Virus record (IMG/VR): IMGVR_UViG_3300027971_000251
Span: 1-21,560 of that record
Reading direction: 5' to 3' (one strand)
From: a virus
DNA: 21,560 nucleotides
Positions 5,432 through 20,962 of the stretch are shown in pieces (the stretch's first letter is position 1; every line of letters starts with the position of its first letter). The notes under the pieces were generated by a model. The model saw nothing but the letters and a program-made list of their open reading frames with translations, did no database searches and was not told where the DNA came from. The translations under genes were made by a program, and so were the position numbers.

Positions 5432-5439
5432 TATTTATA
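5432..5439 (-). promoter_or_regulatory. T4-type late promoter (TATAAATA) before gp22
   Basis: An exact TATAAATA on the minus strand in the gp21-gp22 gap, 22 nt before the gp22 ATG, followed by a leader with AGGAG. It is in the normal position for a late promoter with a short leader and would drive the scaffold and capsid genes. Confidence 0.8.
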
Positions 5440-6094: not shown

Positions 6095-6442
6095 TTAGTA
6101 TCCGCCTGGTGCAGTTGTGTATGTTGCTTCTTTGGTTAGTTCTAATACTACAAAACCACCTGTATTAATTGTAACAACAATTGGTTGAGTGTTATTATTA
6201 GCTAATGTAGTGTTGAGTGAATCAAACTCAAGAGTACCTGTATTATGCAACGTAACAATTGGCACAGAATTACGAACAATTTGAATATTGCCGTTTGTTG
6301 ACCATGCAATTTTACGAATGTTTGCGGCAGTAATAGTTTCATTGGCACCAGTTGAAAGGTTAGCCAATGCGATAGTAGTTCCAGTATCAATAATTCTAGC
6401 TATTGATGCTGAACGAAGTGTGTTTATGTATTCAAATGCCAT
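6095..6442 (-). CDS. Hypothetical beta-rich small protein in the head cluster
   Basis: 115 residues, family not recognised with certainty. It is rich in T, I, N and A with alternating polar and hydrophobic residues (IARIIDTGTTIALANLSTG, IQIVRNSVPIVTLHNTGTLEF, PIVVTINTGGFVVLELTKEA), which suggests a small all-beta protein. It has no cysteines, no signal peptide and no membrane segment. It sits between the basic core protein and gp21 with 1-nt gaps on both sides, so it is expressed with the head assembly set. A head surface or vertex protein, or another small virion component, is a reasonable inference. The gene itself is well supported by its tight fit; nothing in the sequence proves the function. 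Confidence 0.75.
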   Translation of the reverse strand: MAFEYINTLRSASIARIIDTGTTIALANLSTGANETITAANIRKIAWSTNGNIQIVRNSVPIVTLHNTGTLEFDSLNTTLANNNTQPIVVTINTGGFVVLELTKEATYTTAPGGY

Positions 6443-6443
6443 T

Positions 6444-6881
6444 TTATCTTAGTCCTATTGATGAGCGTCTACGCATACTCATTTTTCTTTTCATTAATGT
6501 GCGGCGTAATTTTGCTTTTCTAGTTGTCTTCCATGACCTTTTTAATAGTCTTGCTTTTCTTAATCTTACTGTTGCGGGTATACGTTTAACTGTATTACCC
6601 GATATTCTATAACCTTTAATGGCGGATCGTCTTACATTTTTTTGTATAACAATCTTACCCTTAGCATTTCTTCTAATTCTACGGCGAATCTTTTGGACTC
6701 TACCCATCTTAATGATGTTACGATTTTGAGTTGCCTCATCTAAAACTTCATTAAACATATCTTCTGCAACATAACGCTTTGCTTCTGCAAGACGTTTTGC
6801 AACTATCTCATTTAGATGAGCAAATAACTTTTCTTTTGCTTCATCTAATTTATTTTCTATTAACGATGATACAAAACTCAT
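6444..6881 (-). CDS. Polycationic head-core protein (gp68-like position)
   Basis: 145 residues in two contrasting parts. Residues 1-57 are an amphipathic helical stretch (ENKLDEAKEKLFAHLNEIVA, then KRYVAEDMFNEVLDEA) like the helical parts of T4-type core proteins. Residues 58-145 hold 36 K/R and no D or E, ending KRKMSMRRRSSIGLR. Two candidate gp21 sites, L-D-E|A at 12-15 and L-D-E|A at 47-50, precede the tail; cutting at the second would release a roughly 96-residue strongly basic peptide inside the head. Position between the portal/gp67 and gp21 matches T4 gene 68, but I cannot show homology to gp68. It overlaps the upstream gene by 4 nt (ATGA). A DNA-binding or core role is an inference from charge. 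Confidence 0.8.
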   Translation of the reverse strand: MSFVSSLIENKLDEAKEKLFAHLNEIVAKRLAEAKRYVAEDMFNEVLDEATQNRNIIKMGRVQKIRRRIRRNAKGKIVIQKNVRRSAIKGYRISGNTVKRIPATVRLRKARLLKRSWKTTRKAKLRRTLMKRKMSMRRRSSIGLR

Positions 6882-11797: not shown

Positions 11798-13435
11798 TTA
11801 GAAAGTTGCAGAGGAGGAATAACCTCTTTCAGTCCAAACATCTCCATTAGTACTATCAATGATAATTTCCTCTTTGAGGCCATTATCAAATATGCCTACT
11901 GGAGCTAAATCTTCGTCAACTAACATATTTTGTTCTGCTAACATTAATTTTCTTACGTCAATATCAGTACTGTCTTTGAAGAATGTCTGTGCCGTCAACC
12001 ATGCAAAAATAACTAGACCCATCACCAAATCATCATTGTTTCCTTCTTCCGCAGCATAACTGTCACGGACTCGGACAAAGGTATTCATCTCGGCAATAGT
12101 ATCAAAATCGTTGACAATTAATTTGTCGTTTTCAACTAATGTTTTTAAGTTGGCACAACCAATTTTTTTAACTGATTTTGTTGTTTTTAAGCCAAAAGAT
12201 GCAGACCTTTTGAATCCTCCAGAAATACTCTGACCTTTTATATGATGGTGTTCTAGTTTGTAAATGTTTTCGTATTCTAAATCATAATGTAAAATATCAA
12301 CCACTTGTTGGCCAATATTGTTTGTTTCAATCAAAACATATGCTTCATTGTATTTCTTTGCAATCGAATAGATTACAGTTGGAAAAAACAATAAAGGTAA
12401 TTTATTATTACGGTATTTAGCGACTTGTTTATAAGGTGTTTGAGATACATCAAGCACATTAATAGTTGAATAGTCTAAGTTCACACCTTCTGAACAGTCT
12501 ACTGTCGTAATATAAAGTCGGTCTTTAATAGGTTCCTCATATATATCAAAACCTTCAATTGAGGATAATGGATTATGAAATGCAAGACTTCTAAGTTTAG
12601 TGCCAGATATCAATGTTGCCGATGAGCCAATAAATTCGGTTTCAAACTCTTGTCGAAATTGTTCTTCAGAAGTGTTTCGTATTGTTTCGCTTTTCCAATC
12701 CGCATCACGACCTGGTACTTGAGACCAATGAACCTCAAGTGATTTGTATGTGGATCGTCCCTCTATTGCATCAACCCACATCTTATAGAAATGATTTAAT
12801 CCACAAGGTGTTGATACAATAATAACTTTTGTAGTTTTACCAGATGAGATAACAGGGTATGTTGAAGTAAAGAAATCATCTGCCATGTTTTTAGGAACGA
12901 AAGCAAATTCATCTAAGAAAATTAAGTTGTATGTACCACCACGAACACCAGATGCTGATGTTGCATATGCGGCTATCTTAGATTTGTTCTCTAACTCAAT
13001 ATTACCTTTGTTCCAAGTAATGATACCTTGTTGCAACCATATTGGTAAATACTCATAGGCATATTGAATACGACCTAGAATGTCACGAGCAAGAGCACCT
13101 TTGTTTGCAAGAATAGCAATACTGTAGTCATCTTGAAATAAAACTGACCAAAGCATATAACCCACAGTCGTAGTTGTTTTACCAACTTGACGAGGCATCT
13201 TTGCAATACAGAAACGATTGTTATGAAATGTTCTGACCATGTCTTCTTGGAACGGCCACATTTCAAAGTTAATAAGTCCTCGGTCTACGTTAACAATTTT
13301 AACATAGGTTCTAATAAAATACACCGGGTCTTCAGTACACTTTATAATTTCCGCAACTTGTTCCTCGGTGTAGGATATTTCTACACCAAGTTTTTTTAAG
13401 TTCGAATTTCCAAGATATCCACCAGCATCTATCAT
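11798..13435 (-). CDS. 17: Terminase large subunit gp17
   Basis: ATP-driven packaging motor with a headful nuclease; it docks on the portal and pumps DNA into the prohead. 545 residues versus 610 in T4. Motor domain: Walker A PRQVGKTT at 81-88, Walker B LIFLDE at 171-176 with catalytic E176, and coupling motif VSTPCG at 208-212. RNase H-like nuclease: D313 in TVDCSEG, E370 in LIETNNIG, and D468/D469 in NNDDLVMGL, matching the acidic triad of T4 gp17. All key residues are present, so the enzyme should be active. The ATG at 13435 begins 1 nt after the Dps-like stop with no Shine-Dalgarno, so translation likely depends on coupling. Confidence 0.97.
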   Translation of the reverse strand: MIDAGGYLGNSNLKKLGVEISYTEEQVAEIIKCTEDPVYFIRTYVKIVNVDRGLINFEMWPFQEDMVRTFHNNRFCIAKMPRQVGKTTTTVGYMLWSVLFQDDYSIAILANKGALARDILGRIQYAYEYLPIWLQQGIITWNKGNIELENKSKIAAYATSASGVRGGTYNLIFLDEFAFVPKNMADDFFTSTYPVISSGKTTKVIIVSTPCGLNHFYKMWVDAIEGRSTYKSLEVHWSQVPGRDADWKSETIRNTSEEQFRQEFETEFIGSSATLISGTKLRSLAFHNPLSSIEGFDIYEEPIKDRLYITTVDCSEGVNLDYSTINVLDVSQTPYKQVAKYRNNKLPLLFFPTVIYSIAKKYNEAYVLIETNNIGQQVVDILHYDLEYENIYKLEHHHIKGQSISGGFKRSASFGLKTTKSVKKIGCANLKTLVENDKLIVNDFDTIAEMNTFVRVRDSYAAEEGNNDDLVMGLVIFAWLTAQTFFKDSTDIDVRKLMLAEQNMLVDEDLAPVGIFDNGLKEEIIIDSTNGDVWTERGYSSSATF

Positions 13436-13436
13436 A

Positions 13437-13874
13437 TTATTTAATAATACTTCTCAACATCCATGATTTCTTTTGATGAGCACCAAGAAGTTCTTGTAAA
13501 AAGTTTGATACAGCAGGCTCATTAGCTTGTTCAGCGGCTACTATACCTGCACGAAGGTGTATGATATAACGGTCATTGTCCAATTTTAATTGTGTCATCA
13601 TTTCCATTGCGGTTGGAATAATATCTACTGCTTCTTCAATATCTGCCAATTCTAAAAATCTTTCCATAGAACCTGGTACATAAGAATCCAAATATCTCAC
13701 ATGTTCTGCAATCAAATCGGTTTGTGCAAATACTTCAGTATAAAAACCATTTAAGAAATCATGGTATTGAGGAAAGTTAGGACCCTCAATATTCCAATGA
13801 TAGTTGTGCGACTTCAGATACAACGCAAAGTTTGTACCTAAAATTACTTTAAGTTGTTGAATTAATTGTTCCAT
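13437..13874 (-). CDS. Dps/ferritin-like protein
   Basis: 145 residues with the Dps family signature. Dps proteins form 12-mer shells that oxidise and store iron with peroxide and, in many cases, protect DNA. Taking the E. coli Dps ferroxidase residues H51, H63, D67, D78 and E82, this protein shows H26, H38, N42, D53 and E57 with identical spacing; only the D67 position is changed (to N). The motif HNYHWNIEGPNFPQYH at 23-38 is classic, and DSYVPGS near 63-69 matches the loop after helix B. It starts directly at helix A and lacks the lysine-rich N-terminal tail used by E. coli Dps to bind DNA. It lies between gp16 and gp17, which are adjacent in T4. AATAAATA stands 5 nt before the ATG and there is no Shine-Dalgarno. 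Confidence 0.88.
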   Translation of the reverse strand: MEQLIQQLKVILGTNFALYLKSHNYHWNIEGPNFPQYHDFLNGFYTEVFAQTDLIAEHVRYLDSYVPGSMERFLELADIEEAVDIIPTAMEMMTQLKLDNDRYIIHLRAGIVAAEQANEPAVSNFLQELLGAHQKKSWMLRSIIK

Positions 13875-13878
13875 AATA

Positions 13879-14265
13879 CTATTTATTGTTCTTTAAAAAC
13901 TTAACGAGTTCAGTTGTTGATCCAACAAATACAGCCTTATCTATATTCGTAGTTGAATTATTTTTTGATTGAGTTGGATCCAAATCTCTTTTGCGTTTTT
14001 GAATTTCTAATAAATCTTTGTTTAAGTCACCAAGATTTTTAATGAGTCCTGCGGCAACTTCATATGCTCTTGGATGTTCTGATGCATTAGCCACTTGAAG
14101 TAGAGTATCAATTGCACTATTACCTTTTGAAATCAAATCACGAATATTTGTTCGTGCAAATTCAGCATCATCTTCAATAGGTGATTTAACTTCAACTATT
14201 GAAGTTTCAAATTGAATAGGTTCAACATCCAATACTTCAGATAATTTTTGATTCAATTTATGCAT
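13879..14265 (-). CDS. 16: Terminase small subunit gp16
   Basis: DNA-recognition subunit of the packaging machine; in T4 it forms rings and stimulates the gp17 ATPase. 128 residues versus 164 in T4. The helical core lies near residues 32-92: DDAEFARTNIRDLISKGNSA, then LLQVANASEHPRAYEVAAGL and LNKDLLEIQKRKRDLD. The C-terminal part is polar (QSKNNSTTNI) followed by AVFVGSTTELVKFL, a pattern shared with cyanophage gp16. The start overlaps the gp15 stop by 1 nt (TAATG), and the gene ends 4 nt before the Dps-like ATG. Assignment rests on pattern and position before the large subunit. Confidence 0.85.
   Translation of the reverse strand: MHKLNQKLSEVLDVEPIQFETSIVEVKSPIEDDAEFARTNIRDLISKGNSAIDTLLQVANASEHPRAYEVAAGLIKNLGDLNKDLLEIQKRKRDLDPTQSKNNSTTNIDKAVFVGSTTELVKFLKNNK
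13880..13887 (-). promoter_or_regulatory. Late promoter variant (AATAAATA) before the Dps-like gene
   Basis: AATAAATA on the minus strand inside the last codons of gp16, with a 5-nt spacer to the Dps-like ATG at 13874. The geometry is the same as at gp3 and the fibre gene. One mismatch to consensus, and it overlaps a coding region, so confidence is lower. Confidence 0.45.
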
Positions 14266-15257
14266 TAAAATGTGCGCCCAGTAGTTACTGTCTCTGAAAA
14301 TCCAAATTCATCATCTGGTTCGGCAGTCAATGGCTTTGGTCTTGTTGTTATTGTTGTTGATTTTAATGGTGTTTTGTCAGCAGTTTTAATAGTAAATGTT
14401 GCACCAGTAAAATCACCACGAACAACATCACCAACAGCCAAATAATCATTTAATGATTCAACTATTAATATACCATTATTTACATTACTAAAATATGAAA
14501 CTGTACCATGCACATCTCTATCAGTAACTCTAATTGTTTCTGAATCAGAGAATCGCCCAACACCATTTGCAAAGTCTACAAAAACTTGTTGTTCAAGTAA
14601 ACTATTTGGTTGAATGTATAGGTTTGTATTGGCCACATTAATAATTTTACCAGTTTTAACTGGAGGCCAGATATGACTTTTTGCGGTAAATTCTAAATTC
14701 CAAATAATCATGCGAGTTTCCATCATGTCGCCTTCATAAGTGGTTTCATTTGAAACTGAATTCAGAATGATAGGCATATCATATTTTGGGTCCATCAAAG
14801 GAATAAAATCAACAGTCACACTAAAATCTGGTGTAAAGAATGGTAAAATTTGTTCTAGTATCTGTGTGCCATCTTCTGTGTTTCTTACATAGATTGATAA
14901 TGAAAAATCAAAATTGTAAGGCACAGGAACATATTGTGCATTTACAGTTGTTGCATTATTTGCAGAAAAATTACGAACAGTAGTAGGTAATTTTCTACTT
15001 GAATCATAACTCATTCCTGTCATCTCAAATGAAATTCTAGGAACAGTTGTTGCAATTGATTTTGTTAATGTTGGGTCGGCAGTTAATCGTGTTAGATATT
15101 TTTCTTTTGCGCCCCAATTCAAAGGAACTTTTATAGTTTCTTTTGCAGTCAATCCATCTTTGGTATAACGAACCAAATAAATGTCATTGAAAACTGTGCC
15201 AAACGCAACAACTATTTTGCGTATTGTTCTATTATAAAATGTAGCATTACCAAGCAT
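14265..15257 (-). CDS. 15: Tail terminator / sheath stabiliser gp15
   Basis: T4 gp15 forms the hexamer on the head-proximal end of the tail and joins it to the neck. The first 200 residues follow the family: MLGNATFYNRTIRKIVVAFG, VPLNWGAKEKYLTRLTADP near 44-62, PRISFEMTGMSYDSSRKLP near 73-91, PVPYNFDFSLSIYVRNTEDG near 111-130, and WNLEFTAKSHIWPPV near 186-200. Total length is 330 versus 272 in T4. The extra C-terminal segment, about 231-292 (GRFSDSETIRVTDRD, then HGTVSYF, LAVGDVVRGDFTGATF), looks like a small beta module of the kind repeated in phage adhesion and neck proteins. The ATG at 15257 lies 2 nt after the gp14 stop with GGTGAGG upstream. Confidence 0.9.
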   Translation of the reverse strand: MLGNATFYNRTIRKIVVAFGTVFNDIYLVRYTKDGLTAKETIKVPLNWGAKEKYLTRLTADPTLTKSIATTVPRISFEMTGMSYDSSRKLPTTVRNFSANNATTVNAQYVPVPYNFDFSLSIYVRNTEDGTQILEQILPFFTPDFSVTVDFIPLMDPKYDMPIILNSVSNETTYEGDMMETRMIIWNLEFTAKSHIWPPVKTGKIINVANTNLYIQPNSLLEQQVFVDFANGVGRFSDSETIRVTDRDVHGTVSYFSNVNNGILIVESLNDYLAVGDVVRGDFTGATFTIKTADKTPLKSTTITTRPKPLTAEPDDEFGFSETVTTGRTF

Positions 15258-17124: not shown

Positions 17125-20100
17125 TTATCCTAGTGCAATTGCAAGTGCCAACACATCGCCAATTGAAGCGCCAGCAGAAATTGCGGCATTTGAAACTGAA
17201 GTTATTCTACCAAATGTATCTACTGTAAGTGTAACGGCTGTTGTGGTGTTACCATAAGTTCCTGATGTGACGCCAGAATTTCTAAGGCCAATATCTAAAG
17301 CATCAGTTCCAGCATCAGAATTAATAAAAATGCCATTTGCACTAGCGGCAGTAATTGTTAAAGTATCATTATTTGCATCAGCAACTAAATTTGTTCCATT
17401 TGCTGAAACTGTTGTAAATGCTAATTGTGCAGTTTGATTTGCTTTTGTGAAAGCACCTTGTGCATAATCATAAGCAGTTTTAACTGAGTTTGGAGTTGCG
17501 GCTGTAGTTGTGCTTGTTGAACTAATTGAATCTGTTAACTGCACTATACCAGATACGGATGTTGTTCCTGATTGAATTGCAGTATTTGTAACTGCACTAA
17601 CTCTTCCATATGCATCTGTGGTGATAACAGGAACATAAGTTGTATTACCATAAGTGCCGGCAGTACCTGTATTTGCTAATGCTACAAATGCAGTTCCATT
17701 TGAAGTTAGAATTGCACCAGTGGTGTATGATGTTGCATTTGCACCACCTTGTGCAAACGGAAGAACACCAGATGTAATCTGTGTTGTTGAAATCTGAATT
17801 AATGTATTTGTTACGGCAGAAACTCTACCATAAGCATCGGTTGTGATTACTGGATGATAGGCCGCATTGCCGTAGACGCCAGCAGTTCCTGTATTTGCTA
17901 ATGTTGCAAGTGATGTACCATTATATGCAACGATACCATTTGTGAATGTAGTTTGATTTGTACCACCATTACCAATTGGTAATGTTCCTGTGACGCCAGT
18001 CGTTAACGGTAAACCAGTTGCACTTGTCAATACTGCAAAAGATGGTGTGCCAATGTTTGGTGTTGTAAGAACAGGACTTGTGTTAAGAACAACAGAACCA
18101 GTACCTGTAGAAGTTATTACTCCAGTACCACCTTGTGCAACTGCTAATGTACCAGAAGTAATTGCAGCCGCAGAAATTACGATTGCAGTATTTGTTACAG
18201 CAGTTACACGGCCTTTTGAATCTGTAGTGATTACAGGAACATAAGCTGCATTAGCATAAGTTCCAGCAGTACCCGTAGCTGGTAATCTTGCATCTGCCAA
18301 TGTACCAGAAGTAATAGCAGCAGTATCTATTGCAATCGCTGTGTTTGTAACGGCACTAACTCTTCCATAAGCATCAGTAGTGATTACAGGAATATAAGCA
18401 GCATTAGCATATGTTCCGGCAGTACCAGTATTTGCAACCGATACAAATGCAGTACCATTTGATGTTAAGAATGTTCCAGTAGTATAAGTGATTGCGTTTG
18501 CGCCGCCCTGTGCAAACGGAAGAACACCAGATGTAATCTGTGTTGTTGAAATCTGAATTAATGTATTTGTAACTGCACTCACACGACCATATGTGTCAGT
18601 AGTGATTACTGGATGATAGGCTGCATTACCATAAGTTCCTGCCGTACCAGTATTTGCAAGTATTGTAACTGCACTTGTTCCAGAACCAATAAGAATTCCA
18701 CCGGCAGTTAATGTTGTTGCGCCTGTACCACCATCTGCAACTCCGATTGCTGATGCAAGACTTGATACAGTACCACCAGTAATGTTTGCTCTTAGTGTGG
18801 CAGTATTAGAAGCAGTTAAAGAACCAGTTGCAAGTGCGTTTGATGTTGGATCAGTAGTTAAATCTTTGAACAAGAAGAAGTTTGAACCTGCTTGTCTTAC
18901 AAGACCTGCATACTTTTGACCTGTTGCATTATATGTTCCGTAGAAACCAATATCTAAACTATCACCTGCGGTGTTGTTGTTTGCAAGTTTTAATAATGAA
19001 TCAGATGTGGATACAGTTGAAGTGTTAACAGTTGTAGTTGTACCATTAACAATTAAGTTACCAGTAATTGTTGTATCGCCTGATATTGTACCACCAGATG
19101 AATTAAATTTAGTAGAGGCAAAATTGTAAGTTGCATTAATCGCATTTGCAGTTGCAGCTACTGAAGTTAAAGTTGAAGTTACTGTATCATTTAATTGAAC
19201 AATACCTTGAACAGAAGTTGTTGAAGATTGAATTACAGTATTTGTAATTGCAGTAACACGGCCTTTTGCATCTGTGGTTATAACAGGAATGTGAGTAGAG
19301 TTTGCGTAAGTACCAGCAGTACCTGTAGCTGGAAGTCTTGCATCAGCTAGAGTACCAGAAGTAATTGCTGCCGTGTCTATAGCAATAGCAGTATTGGTTA
19401 CGGCAGAAACTCTACCATAAGCATCAGTAGTGATAACAGGAACATAGGCCGCATTAGCATAAGTTCCTGCGGTGCCTGTATTTGATAGTGCTACAAATGC
19501 AGTTCCATTTGAAGTTAATATTGCACCAGTAGTGTATGTTGTATTATTCGCACCGCCTTGAGAAAATGGCAATACACCTGAAGTAATTTGTGATGCAGCT
19601 ATTTGAACTAATGTATTTGTGACTGCACTAACTCTACCATAAGCATCAGTAGTGATTACTGGAACATAAGCCGCATTAGCATATGTACCAGCAGTGCCAG
19701 TATTTGCAACGGATACAAATGCAGTACCGTTAGATGTTAATAAACCACCAGTAGTATAAGAAGTTGCATTTGCGCCACCTTGAGCAAATGTCATTACACC
19801 AGTAACAGCAGTAGATGTTATTGCAATTGCGGTGTTAGTTACAGAACTGACTCTACCATAAGCATCAGTAGTAATTACAGGAATGTAAGCCGCATTGGCG
19901 TAAGTACCTGCGGTGCCTGTGTTTGCCAATGCAACAAAAGAAGTTCCGTTTGATGTTAGAATTGCACCAGTTGTGTATGTTGTATTATTAGAACCACCTT
20001 GTGCAAATGGTAATACACCTGAAGTAACTTGTGAAGCCGCTATCTGAACTAATGTATTTGTAACTGCACTAACCCTGCCGTAAGCATCGGTTGTGATTAC

Positions 20101-20949
20101 TGGATGATAGGCGGCATTTCCATATGTACCAGCAGTACCAGTATTCGCAACAGAAACAAATGAAGTTCCATTTGATGTTAATAGACCACCGGTTGTGTAA
20201 GTTGTTGCATTAGCGCCACCTTGTGCAAATGTCATCACACCTGTCACAGAAGTAGATGTGATTGCAATAGCAGTATTTGTTACCGCAGTTACACGACCTT
20301 TTGCATCTGTAGTAATAACAGGCACATAAGTTGTATTACCATATGTGCCTGCGGTGCCTGTAGCTGGAAGTCTTGCATCAGCTAAAGTACCGGATGTTAA
20401 TGCAGCTGTGTCTATTGCTACTGCGGTGTTTGTAACTGCACTAACTCTTCCATATGCATCTGTTGTGATAACAGGAATATAAGCCGCATTGGCGTAAGTT
20501 CCTGCCGTACCTGTGTTTGCAACAGAAACAAATGCAGTACCGTTAGATGTTAACAGACCGCCAGTTGTGTAGGTTGTTGCGTTTGCACCACCTTGTGCGA
20601 ATGTCATTACACCTGTAACGACACCAGATGAAATTGCAATTGCAGTATTGGTTACAGAACTAACTCTGCCGTAAGCATCAGTAGTTACGACAGGAATAAA
20701 AGATGCGTTACCATATACACCAGCAGTACCAGTATTTGATAGTGCAAGTAAGTGTGAACCATTTGAAGTCAGTATTTGACCTGTGGTAATCGAAGCGTTT
20801 GCTCTAATTAAAGGATTACCACCCGCAGTTGTACCATCGTGTACGACTACGACTTTTTTATCTGTATCTACAGTAATCTCAGCAATAGAACCTGTGAAGG
20901 TTGATGTTTGTGCTGTATTACCTCTTCGTATTTGGACTTGTGTTGACAT
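17125..20949 (-). CDS. Giant repeat-built tail fibre-like protein
   Basis: 1274 residues. The N-terminus VQIRRGNTAQTSTFTGSIAE followed by VVVVHDGTTAGGNPL (residues 5-47) matches the Mtd-type N-terminal domain of phage receptor-binding proteins. Residues 73-1127 carry 13 good copies of a core motif (TGTAGTYxNxxYxPVITTD(A)YGRVSAVTN), and a degenerate 14th copy sits near 1229-1255. The copies sit in units of about 51, 73 or 74 residues that use three linker types: VTGVMTFAQGGAN, TSGVLPFAQGGAN and TSGTLADARLPA. Two non-repeat inserts break the array: 576-765 (ISGDTTITGNLIVNG and a following globular part) and 940-1010. The C-terminus 1128-1274 is different and ends DVLALAIALG. Almost no cysteine, all-beta character. 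It probably forms a long trimeric fibre, but no chaperone or protease domain is visible. A TATAAATA ends 5 nt before the ATG. Confidence 0.85.
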   Translation of the reverse strand: MSTQVQIRRGNTAQTSTFTGSIAEITVDTDKKVVVVHDGTTAGGNPLIRANASITTGQILTSNGSHLLALSNTGTAGVYGNASFIPVVTTDAYGRVSSVTNTAIAISSGVVTGVMTFAQGGANATTYTTGGLLTSNGTAFVSVANTGTAGTYANAAYIPVITTDAYGRVSAVTNTAVAIDTAALTSGTLADARLPATGTAGTYGNTTYVPVITTDAKGRVTAVTNTAIAITSTSVTGVMTFAQGGANATTYTTGGLLTSNGTSFVSVANTGTAGTYGNAAYHPVITTDAYGRVSAVTNTLVQIAASQVTSGVLPFAQGGSNNTTYTTGAILTSNGTSFVALANTGTAGTYANAAYIPVITTDAYGRVSSVTNTAIAITSTAVTGVMTFAQGGANATSYTTGGLLTSNGTAFVSVANTGTAGTYANAAYVPVITTDAYGRVSAVTNTLVQIAASQITSGVLPFSQGGANNTTYTTGAILTSNGTAFVALSNTGTAGTYANAAYVPVITTDAYGRVSAVTNTAIAIDTAAITSGTLADARLPATGTAGTYANSTHIPVITTDAKGRVTAITNTVIQSSTTSVQGIVQLNDTVTSTLTSVAATANAINATYNFASTKFNSSGGTISGDTTITGNLIVNGTTTTVNTSTVSTSDSLLKLANNNTAGDSLDIGFYGTYNATGQKYAGLVRQAGSNFFLFKDLTTDPTSNALATGSLTASNTATLRANITGGTVSSLASAIGVADGGTGATTLTAGGILIGSGTSAVTILANTGTAGTYGNAAYHPVITTDTYGRVSAVTNTLIQISTTQITSGVLPFAQGGANAITYTTGTFLTSNGTAFVSVANTGTAGTYANAAYIPVITTDAYGRVSAVTNTAIAIDTAAITSGTLADARLPATGTAGTYANAAYVPVITTDSKGRVTAVTNTAIVISAAAITSGTLAVAQGGTGVITSTGTGSVVLNTSPVLTTPNIGTPSFAVLTSATGLPLTTGVTGTLPIGNGGTNQTTFTNGIVAYNGTSLATLANTGTAGVYGNAAYHPVITTDAYGRVSAVTNTLIQISTTQITSGVLPFAQGGANATSYTTGAILTSNGTAFVALANTGTAGTYGNTTYVPVITTDAYGRVSAVTNTAIQSGTTSVSGIVQLTDSISSTSTTTAATPNSVKTAYDYAQGAFTKANQTAQLAFTTVSANGTNLVADANNDTLTITAASANGIFINSDAGTDALDIGLRNSGVTSGTYGNTTTAVTLTVDTFGRITSVSNAAISAGASIGDVLALAIALG
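17750..17811 (-). repeat. 62-nt exact direct repeat, copy 1
   Basis: Identical over 62 nt to 18509-18570, 759 nt away. The distance is 253 codons, so recombination between the copies would delete or duplicate residues in frame. It encodes the TTQITSGVLPFAQ linker region that begins near residue 1055 of the fibre. Confidence 0.9.
18509..18570 (-). repeat. 62-nt exact direct repeat, copy 2
   Basis: Second copy of the 62-nt block, encoding the same linker near residue 802 of the fibre. The base on each side differs from copy 1, which defines the ends of the identity. Confidence 0.9.
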
Positions 20950-20954
20950 AGTTG

Positions 20955-20962
20955 TATTTATA
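20955..20962 (-). promoter_or_regulatory. T4-type late promoter (TATAAATA) before the fibre gene
   Basis: An exact TATAAATA on the minus strand overlapping the stop codon of the upstream gene, 5 nt before the fibre ATG at 20949. There is no Shine-Dalgarno. The arrangement matches gp3, and the predicted transcript would be leaderless or nearly so. It would also drive gp13 to gp16 downstream, which lie 1-3 nt apart or overlap. Confidence 0.72.

Follow-up and report, generated by a model that had tools for sequence, protein, structure and literature searches.

The window, a stretch of 21,560 nucleotides from a viral genome (IMG/VR record IMGVR_UViG_3300027971_000251), encodes a Dps-type mini-ferritin between the two terminase subunits of a T4-like phage. 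The protein has the Dps fold and an intact first metal site, the gene is under purifying selection, and its location beside the terminase genes is fixed among related phages. We consider it reasonably probable (roughly 60%) that the gene provides a late-made ferroxidase shell, which guards the DNA from Fenton damage at packaging.

The first-pass annotation, made from the letters alone, had placed a 145-residue reading frame between gp16 and gp17. The coordinates, the two short gaps and the Pfam matches of the terminase genes all agree with this placement (Table 1). The dps gene starts 4 nt past the gp16 stop (13879), and its own stop lies 1 nt ahead of the gp17 ATG (13435). It is flanked by T4-type late genes, every one of them on the minus strand. 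The window also encodes, on the same strand, a strongly repetitive 1274-aa protein with near-identical repeats, probably a tail fibre (17125-20949). Two proteins with no Pfam or PHROG match lie between gp20 and gp21, a very basic one of 145 aa (6444-6881, minus) and one of 115 aa (6095-6442, minus).

Table 1. Positions of the dps gene, its neighbours and its metal-site codons in the window, and of Dps-fusion frames in other contigs (contig:positions).
Feature	Position	Strand	Evidence
Dps-type mini-ferritin gene, 145 aa	13437..13874	-	Pfam, PHROG, PDB and fold searches
gp16, terminase small subunit, directly upstream of dps	13879..14265	-	PF11053 E 7.7e-8; phrog_445 E 2.6e-34
gp17, terminase large subunit, directly downstream of dps	11798..13435	-	PF03237 and PF17289
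gp15, tail sheath stabiliser, upstream of gp16	14265..15257	-	PF16724 E 6.3e-68
H26 codon, ferroxidase ligand (E. coli Dps H51 equivalent)	13797..13799	-	Invariant
H38 codon, ferroxidase ligand (H63 equivalent)	13761..13763	-	Invariant
D53 codon, ferroxidase ligand (D78 equivalent)	13716..13718	-	Invariant
E57 codon, ferroxidase ligand (E82 equivalent)	13704..13706	-	Invariant
N42 codon, at the E. coli D67 position	13749..13751	-	Variable site
Protease-Tudor-Dps fusion	L580:2356-4446; L615:3083-5587		Pfam, PHROGs
Protease-DUF6321-Dps fusion	L568:2816-5101		Pfam, PHROGs
Protease-Dps fusion	L574; L582:3437-4591		Pfam, PHROGs
Dps-protease fusion	L598:1428-3146		Pfam, PHROGs
Portal-protease-Dps fusion	L566:2-5740; L567:2-4939		Pfam, PHROGs

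Membership in the Dps family and the ferroxidase spacing, both recognised at first pass, were borne out by Pfam, PHROG, PDB and ligand alignment alike. The profile search that had been proposed as a check matched Pfam Ferritin (PF00210) with E 5.6e-21 and 75.4 bits, against a cut-off of 24.5. The PHROG match was phrog_3636 (E 1.8e-30). A PDB sequence search gave 56 distinct matches, nearly all of the Dps type, the best being 8ff9 (E 6.3e-22). In NCBIfam the protein scored 41.2 bits versus 114 for NF006975, and it lay far under the DpsA and Dps equivalog cut-offs.

An AlphaFold monomer model, built on an alignment of 20 relatives, reached a pLDDT of 94.2, with helices at residues 2-28, 34-61, 70-76, 89-116 and 120-144. 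It has the four-helix ferritin-like fold of the Dps type, as the structure check had been expected to show. Dps proteins are distinguished from the 24-mer ferritins by the BC helix; the short helix 70-76 matches its position, and a fifth long helix is absent. Foldseek comparison gave TM values of 0.90-0.95 to Dps structures, the best match being Pseudomonas Dps (8ff9, TM 0.94), and all of the 50 best PDB fold matches were Dps-family proteins.

Residues H26, H38, D53 and E57 have the Dps spacing (+12, +15, +4) and align to the metal-binding residues of Dps proteins with known structures. All four are invariant in 99 further proteins from the gp16-gp17 slot, 87 phage Dps from outside the slot and 79 bacterial Dps. 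The second-site carboxylate (E. coli D67) is absent from the window protein, which has N42 instead. The first-pass annotation had remarked on this residue as a possible alteration of iron binding; the observation was right as sequence, but the residue is not special, the site being variable in phages and in bacterial Dps. In the 99 further slot proteins, position 42 is N in 56, G in 23, D in 11, K in 3, A in 3 and E in 2; it is mostly G in the non-slot phage proteins, while among the 79 nearest Dps of bacteria 40 have M and 39 have E. Because of this variation, the second-site carboxylate is, on the alignments, not treated as defining for Dps membership.

The window Dps has a pI of 5.1 and a net charge of about -8, and it lacks a lysine-rich tail. 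Such an acidic, tail-less protein is unlikely to coat DNA as E. coli Dps does, and the earlier view that detoxification or iron storage is likelier than coating still holds. Slot Dps proteins begin straight in helix A (MEQLIQQLKVIL), without a T4-type capsid-targeting N-terminus.

An IMG/VR search with the window Dps identified 369 relatives, and the best 80 of these were retained for locus comparison. Among these 80, dps lay between gp16 and gp17 wherever the flanks were present. Since this set had been chosen by Dps, a second survey was chosen by gp17; it showed dps between the terminase genes in 67 of the 71 complete intervals, the exceptions being L130, L131, L136 and L155. A further search used a second gp17 type as query (L023, 43% identical to the window gp17). 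It found 34 loci with dps, in all of which gp17 shares about 71% identity or more with the L023 query; in the remoter T4-like contigs from this search, dps was not found in the slot. Altogether, the gp16-dps-gp17 order was present in 204 loci with 164 distinct dps sequences, and the three genes mostly overlap or lie a few nucleotides apart. Conservation of the slot among relatives, which the first-pass annotation had proposed to survey, is thus well documented. The outcome that it had named as counting against its reading, unrelated genes in the slot of close relatives, was not what was found; in remoter T4-like contigs there is either no gene in the slot or an SNase-like one. The SNase-like slot genes are about the size of dps (L438:1174-1632, L439:957-1415, L450:3543-4001 and L458:3545-4001), and that of L458 matches the phrog_452 endonuclease (E 1.8e-32). 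The closest cultured gp17 proteins are those of Pelagibacter phage Mosig (56.6% identity) and the cyanophages (about 55%); the Mosig slot contains a 69-aa ORF.

No dps was found elsewhere in the slot-less contigs, in 20 fragments of 7-79 kb that were searched. Two long contigs, G012 and G013 (143 and 165 kb), have no slot dps and carry dps at another site; the gene is thus not bound to the terminase slot. A second, more divergent ferritin-like gene was seen in two Dps-carrying phage contigs (G003:C1:6042-6413 and G014:C1:23123-23488). The region of gp16 and gp17 resembles a hotspot for insertions. ORFs resembling GIY-YIG or HNH homing endonucleases by eye lie next to dps at L097:3424-4000, L121:3008-3420, L239:3984-4560, L263:1557-2142 and L252:4461-5001, and an intein-like interruption of gp17 is present at L257:3780-5050. 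A 162-kb contig of a T4-like phage with slot dps (that of L036) carries a cluster of 25 tRNA genes (L470-L471). A cyanophage host was considered and found no support, as no psbA was detected in the 15 long viral contigs searched.

Simple pairwise counts with the window as reference gave median dN/dS values of 0.093 for dps, 0.072 for gp17, 0.257 for gp16 and 0.270 for gp15. The dps gene is under strong purifying selection, like gp17 and well below gp16 and gp15. In the gp17-chosen set, identity ranged from 44 to 94% for dps and from 79 to 98% for gp17. Between contigs whose gp17 proteins are only 42-46% identical, dps is still about 79-90% identical. The synonymous divergence of dps across the two gp17 types is mostly 0.6-1.6, often near saturation. 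This large divergence indicates that the similarity of dps across gp17 types reflects constraint, and recent transfer as its source was rejected for most contigs of the other gp17 type. Local recombination was seen at L056, where gp17 is 98%, dps 85% and gp16 54% identical.

In the phylogenetic tree, the main slot Dps clade had an SH-aLRT support of 99. Two separate entries of dps into the slot, hinted at by a quick tree, were dropped, as a single clade for all slot Dps is not rejected and fits better (AU p 0.93). The phage Dps proteins were set apart from the bacterial Dps found with a support of only 86. One relative at 46% identity (L157) comes from a Kiruna MAG labelled 'Bacteroidetes'; it adjoins phage virion genes and probably represents a phage contig that was binned with the MAG.

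Promoter searches gave no late promoter directly before dps in the window, where the T4 late-promoter-like TATAAATA occurs only at 2794, 5432 and 20955, nor upstream of dps in the 204 slot loci. A sigma-70 scan ahead of dps was no richer than shuffles, and an RNA element was looked for without success. Two of the TATAAATA copies (5432-5439 and 20955-20962, minus) closely precede gp22 and the gene of the 1274-aa repeat protein, and the third (2794-2801, minus) lies near a probable gene start, although the total in the window is no more than expected by chance. Since no recognisable promoter belongs to dps itself, the late expression proposed at first pass may be inferred from the place of the gene in the late cluster.

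In the 87 related loci outside the slot, dps lies away from the terminase. Its usual neighbours there are a cytidyltransferase-like protein, a virion structural protein (phrog_1645) and head proteins. The internal proteins of T-even phages have a common conserved capsid-targeting sequence (PMC3012670). A home-made pattern that only resembles this T4 signal, roughly M-K-x-F-x-x-F/Y-I/L-x-E, matched the N-termini of 122 of 780 same-strand ORFs in the non-slot loci versus 13 in shuffled N-termini. The slot loci were not enriched (4 of 888, versus 14 in shuffles). Clusters of such ORFs surround dps at L293, L300, L328, L342, L465 and other non-slot loci, and are candidate internal head proteins; many have nucleotidyltransferase or unknown domains. 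Their N-termini resemble those of the T4 internal head proteins, whereas the window Dps has no such N-terminus.

Fold matches in BFVD included Dps domains within proteins named prohead protease. When IMG/VR was queried with more divergent Dps, 33 contigs were found to contain a Dps domain together with further domains in one long stop-free frame; L550 was left out of the fusions, being merely an upstream extension. A head-maturation protease in the Dps frame was confirmed by Pfam and PHROGs in all eight of the 33 contigs tested, and most of the remainder have the same N-terminal sequence. There are at least five architectures (Table 1). Each of the 20 fused Dps domains that were aligned retains the four metal ligands. 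Residues 210-287 of the L568 frame correspond to PF19846 (DUF6321), a phrog_4689/phrog_10346 domain; this domain accompanies Dps both in that fusion and in the T4-like head clusters L342 and L358. No description of a Dps-protease fusion was found in the open-access papers searched. The fixed position of dps beside the terminase genes across a large clade of T4-like phages, like its repeated fusion to head proteases, appears to be undescribed.

Among the bacterial proteins, P. aeruginosa PA0962 (8ff9), B. anthracis Dlp-1 and Dlp-2, and T. pallidum TpF1 are like the window Dps in fold (TM 0.93-0.95). They have in common with it the BC helix, the ferroxidase ligands and the length, at about 26-31% identity; to the clearly bacterial genes found, identity is at most about 40%. 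The window protein differs from the bacterial Dps in being encoded by a phage gene and in having N in place of the second-site carboxylate. T4 is not known to have a Dps. The best cultured match (32%) is in the T4-like Synechococcus phage S-SRM01 from a reservoir, whose dps, unlike that of the window, lies among auxiliary and hypothetical genes away from the terminase. The phiEco32-like phages Salmonella 7-11, Privateer and SU10 also encode a Dps (phrog_3636; 25-29% identity to the window protein), but among replication and nucleotide-metabolism genes and not at the terminase. By mass spectrometry, Dps was detected in CsCl-purified Privateer virions (PMC7881722) and in SU10 phage preparations, although the SU10 sample also contained DNA polymerase and other non-structural proteins (PMC4281155). 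Dps proteins with a proposed oxidative-stress or auxiliary role have been reported from gut phages of the Gratiaviridae (PMC8008677) and from Lactobacillus phages (PMC6669764). These belong to other lineages than the window phage; the available text of the two reports describes no link to terminase or head genes and places the Lactobacillus dps near DNA-metabolism genes. Text matches for phage 7-7-1 concerned decoration proteins, not Dps.

In Dps shells, Fe(II) is oxidised, with H2O2 as the preferred oxidant, and the iron is stored, which keeps hydroxyl radicals from cleaving DNA. Twelve subunits of the window protein would probably form such a hollow shell. At the two-fold interfaces, H26 and H38 of one subunit and D53 and E57 of its neighbour would bind Fe(II), which would be oxidised in the way general for Dps and kept as a ferric mineral. 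By producing Dps together with the packaging motor, the phage could remove free iron and peroxide during packaging, when new DNA may be most exposed to Fenton cleavage. The terminase slot and the protease fusions suggest that phages use Dps for DNA protection around packaging. Counting against this are the missing second iron ligand (the D67 equivalent), the lack of a recognisable dps promoter, the existence of some relatives without dps and the different site of dps in the long contigs G012 and G013.

Dps might also be carried in the head. A shell, or its subunits, could be enclosed within the prohead alongside the DNA, protect the free particle in sunlit lake surface water containing H2O2, and perhaps enter the next cell. 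The fusions to head-maturation proteases or related head domains with their intact ligands, the virion-protein surroundings and targeting-like N-termini of the non-slot T4-like loci, and the mass spectrometry of Privateer and SU10, which are other phages, all point this way. However, the window Dps has neither a targeting-like N-terminus nor a fusion, such N-termini are no commoner in the slot loci than in shuffles, the SU10 sample was mixed, and a head-gene neighbourhood proves neighbourhood alone. For the window protein, residence in the virion is thus conceivable but rather doubtful. As protection at packaging and protection in the virion overlap, the likelihoods attached to the four readings weighed here do not form a partition.

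It is somewhat unlikely that dps is a general auxiliary gene, whose cytosolic product sustains the infected host under iron or peroxide stress, with the slot as a convenient insertion site. The hotspot-like features of the region (endonuclease-like ORFs, the intein-like interruption and the SNase-like slot gene) would fit this, as would the dps of cultured phages beside nucleotide-metabolism genes or elsewhere, and the role proposed for the gut and Lactobacillus phages. Long retention in the slot, the recurring link to head genes and fusion to a head protease would nevertheless be unexpected for a free-floating gene. The Dps fold might instead have been recruited as a redox-inactive terminase partner or DNA-condensing factor, given the position between the terminase genes, the label 'DNA binding protein' of phrog_3636 and the missing second-site ligand. 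This is very improbable, as no aligned sequence departs from the four first-site ligands and the window protein is acidic and without a basic tail.

In summary, phage Dps proteins are already known, gene by gene, and have usually been treated as auxiliary. Here, the packaging locus of a T4-like lake clade known from metagenomes contains dps almost throughout, and in other lake phages it is fused to the protease. If Dps acts at packaging or in the head, iron-driven oxidative damage would exert selection on the virion itself, and mineral iron might be carried by virions. Tentatively, Dps may have been taken up into head assembly by several unrelated phage lineages, whether as a free protein made together with the terminase, placed among putative internal head proteins or fused to the protease. 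If so, virions would contain a ferroxidase that shields their packaged genome and perhaps carries iron.
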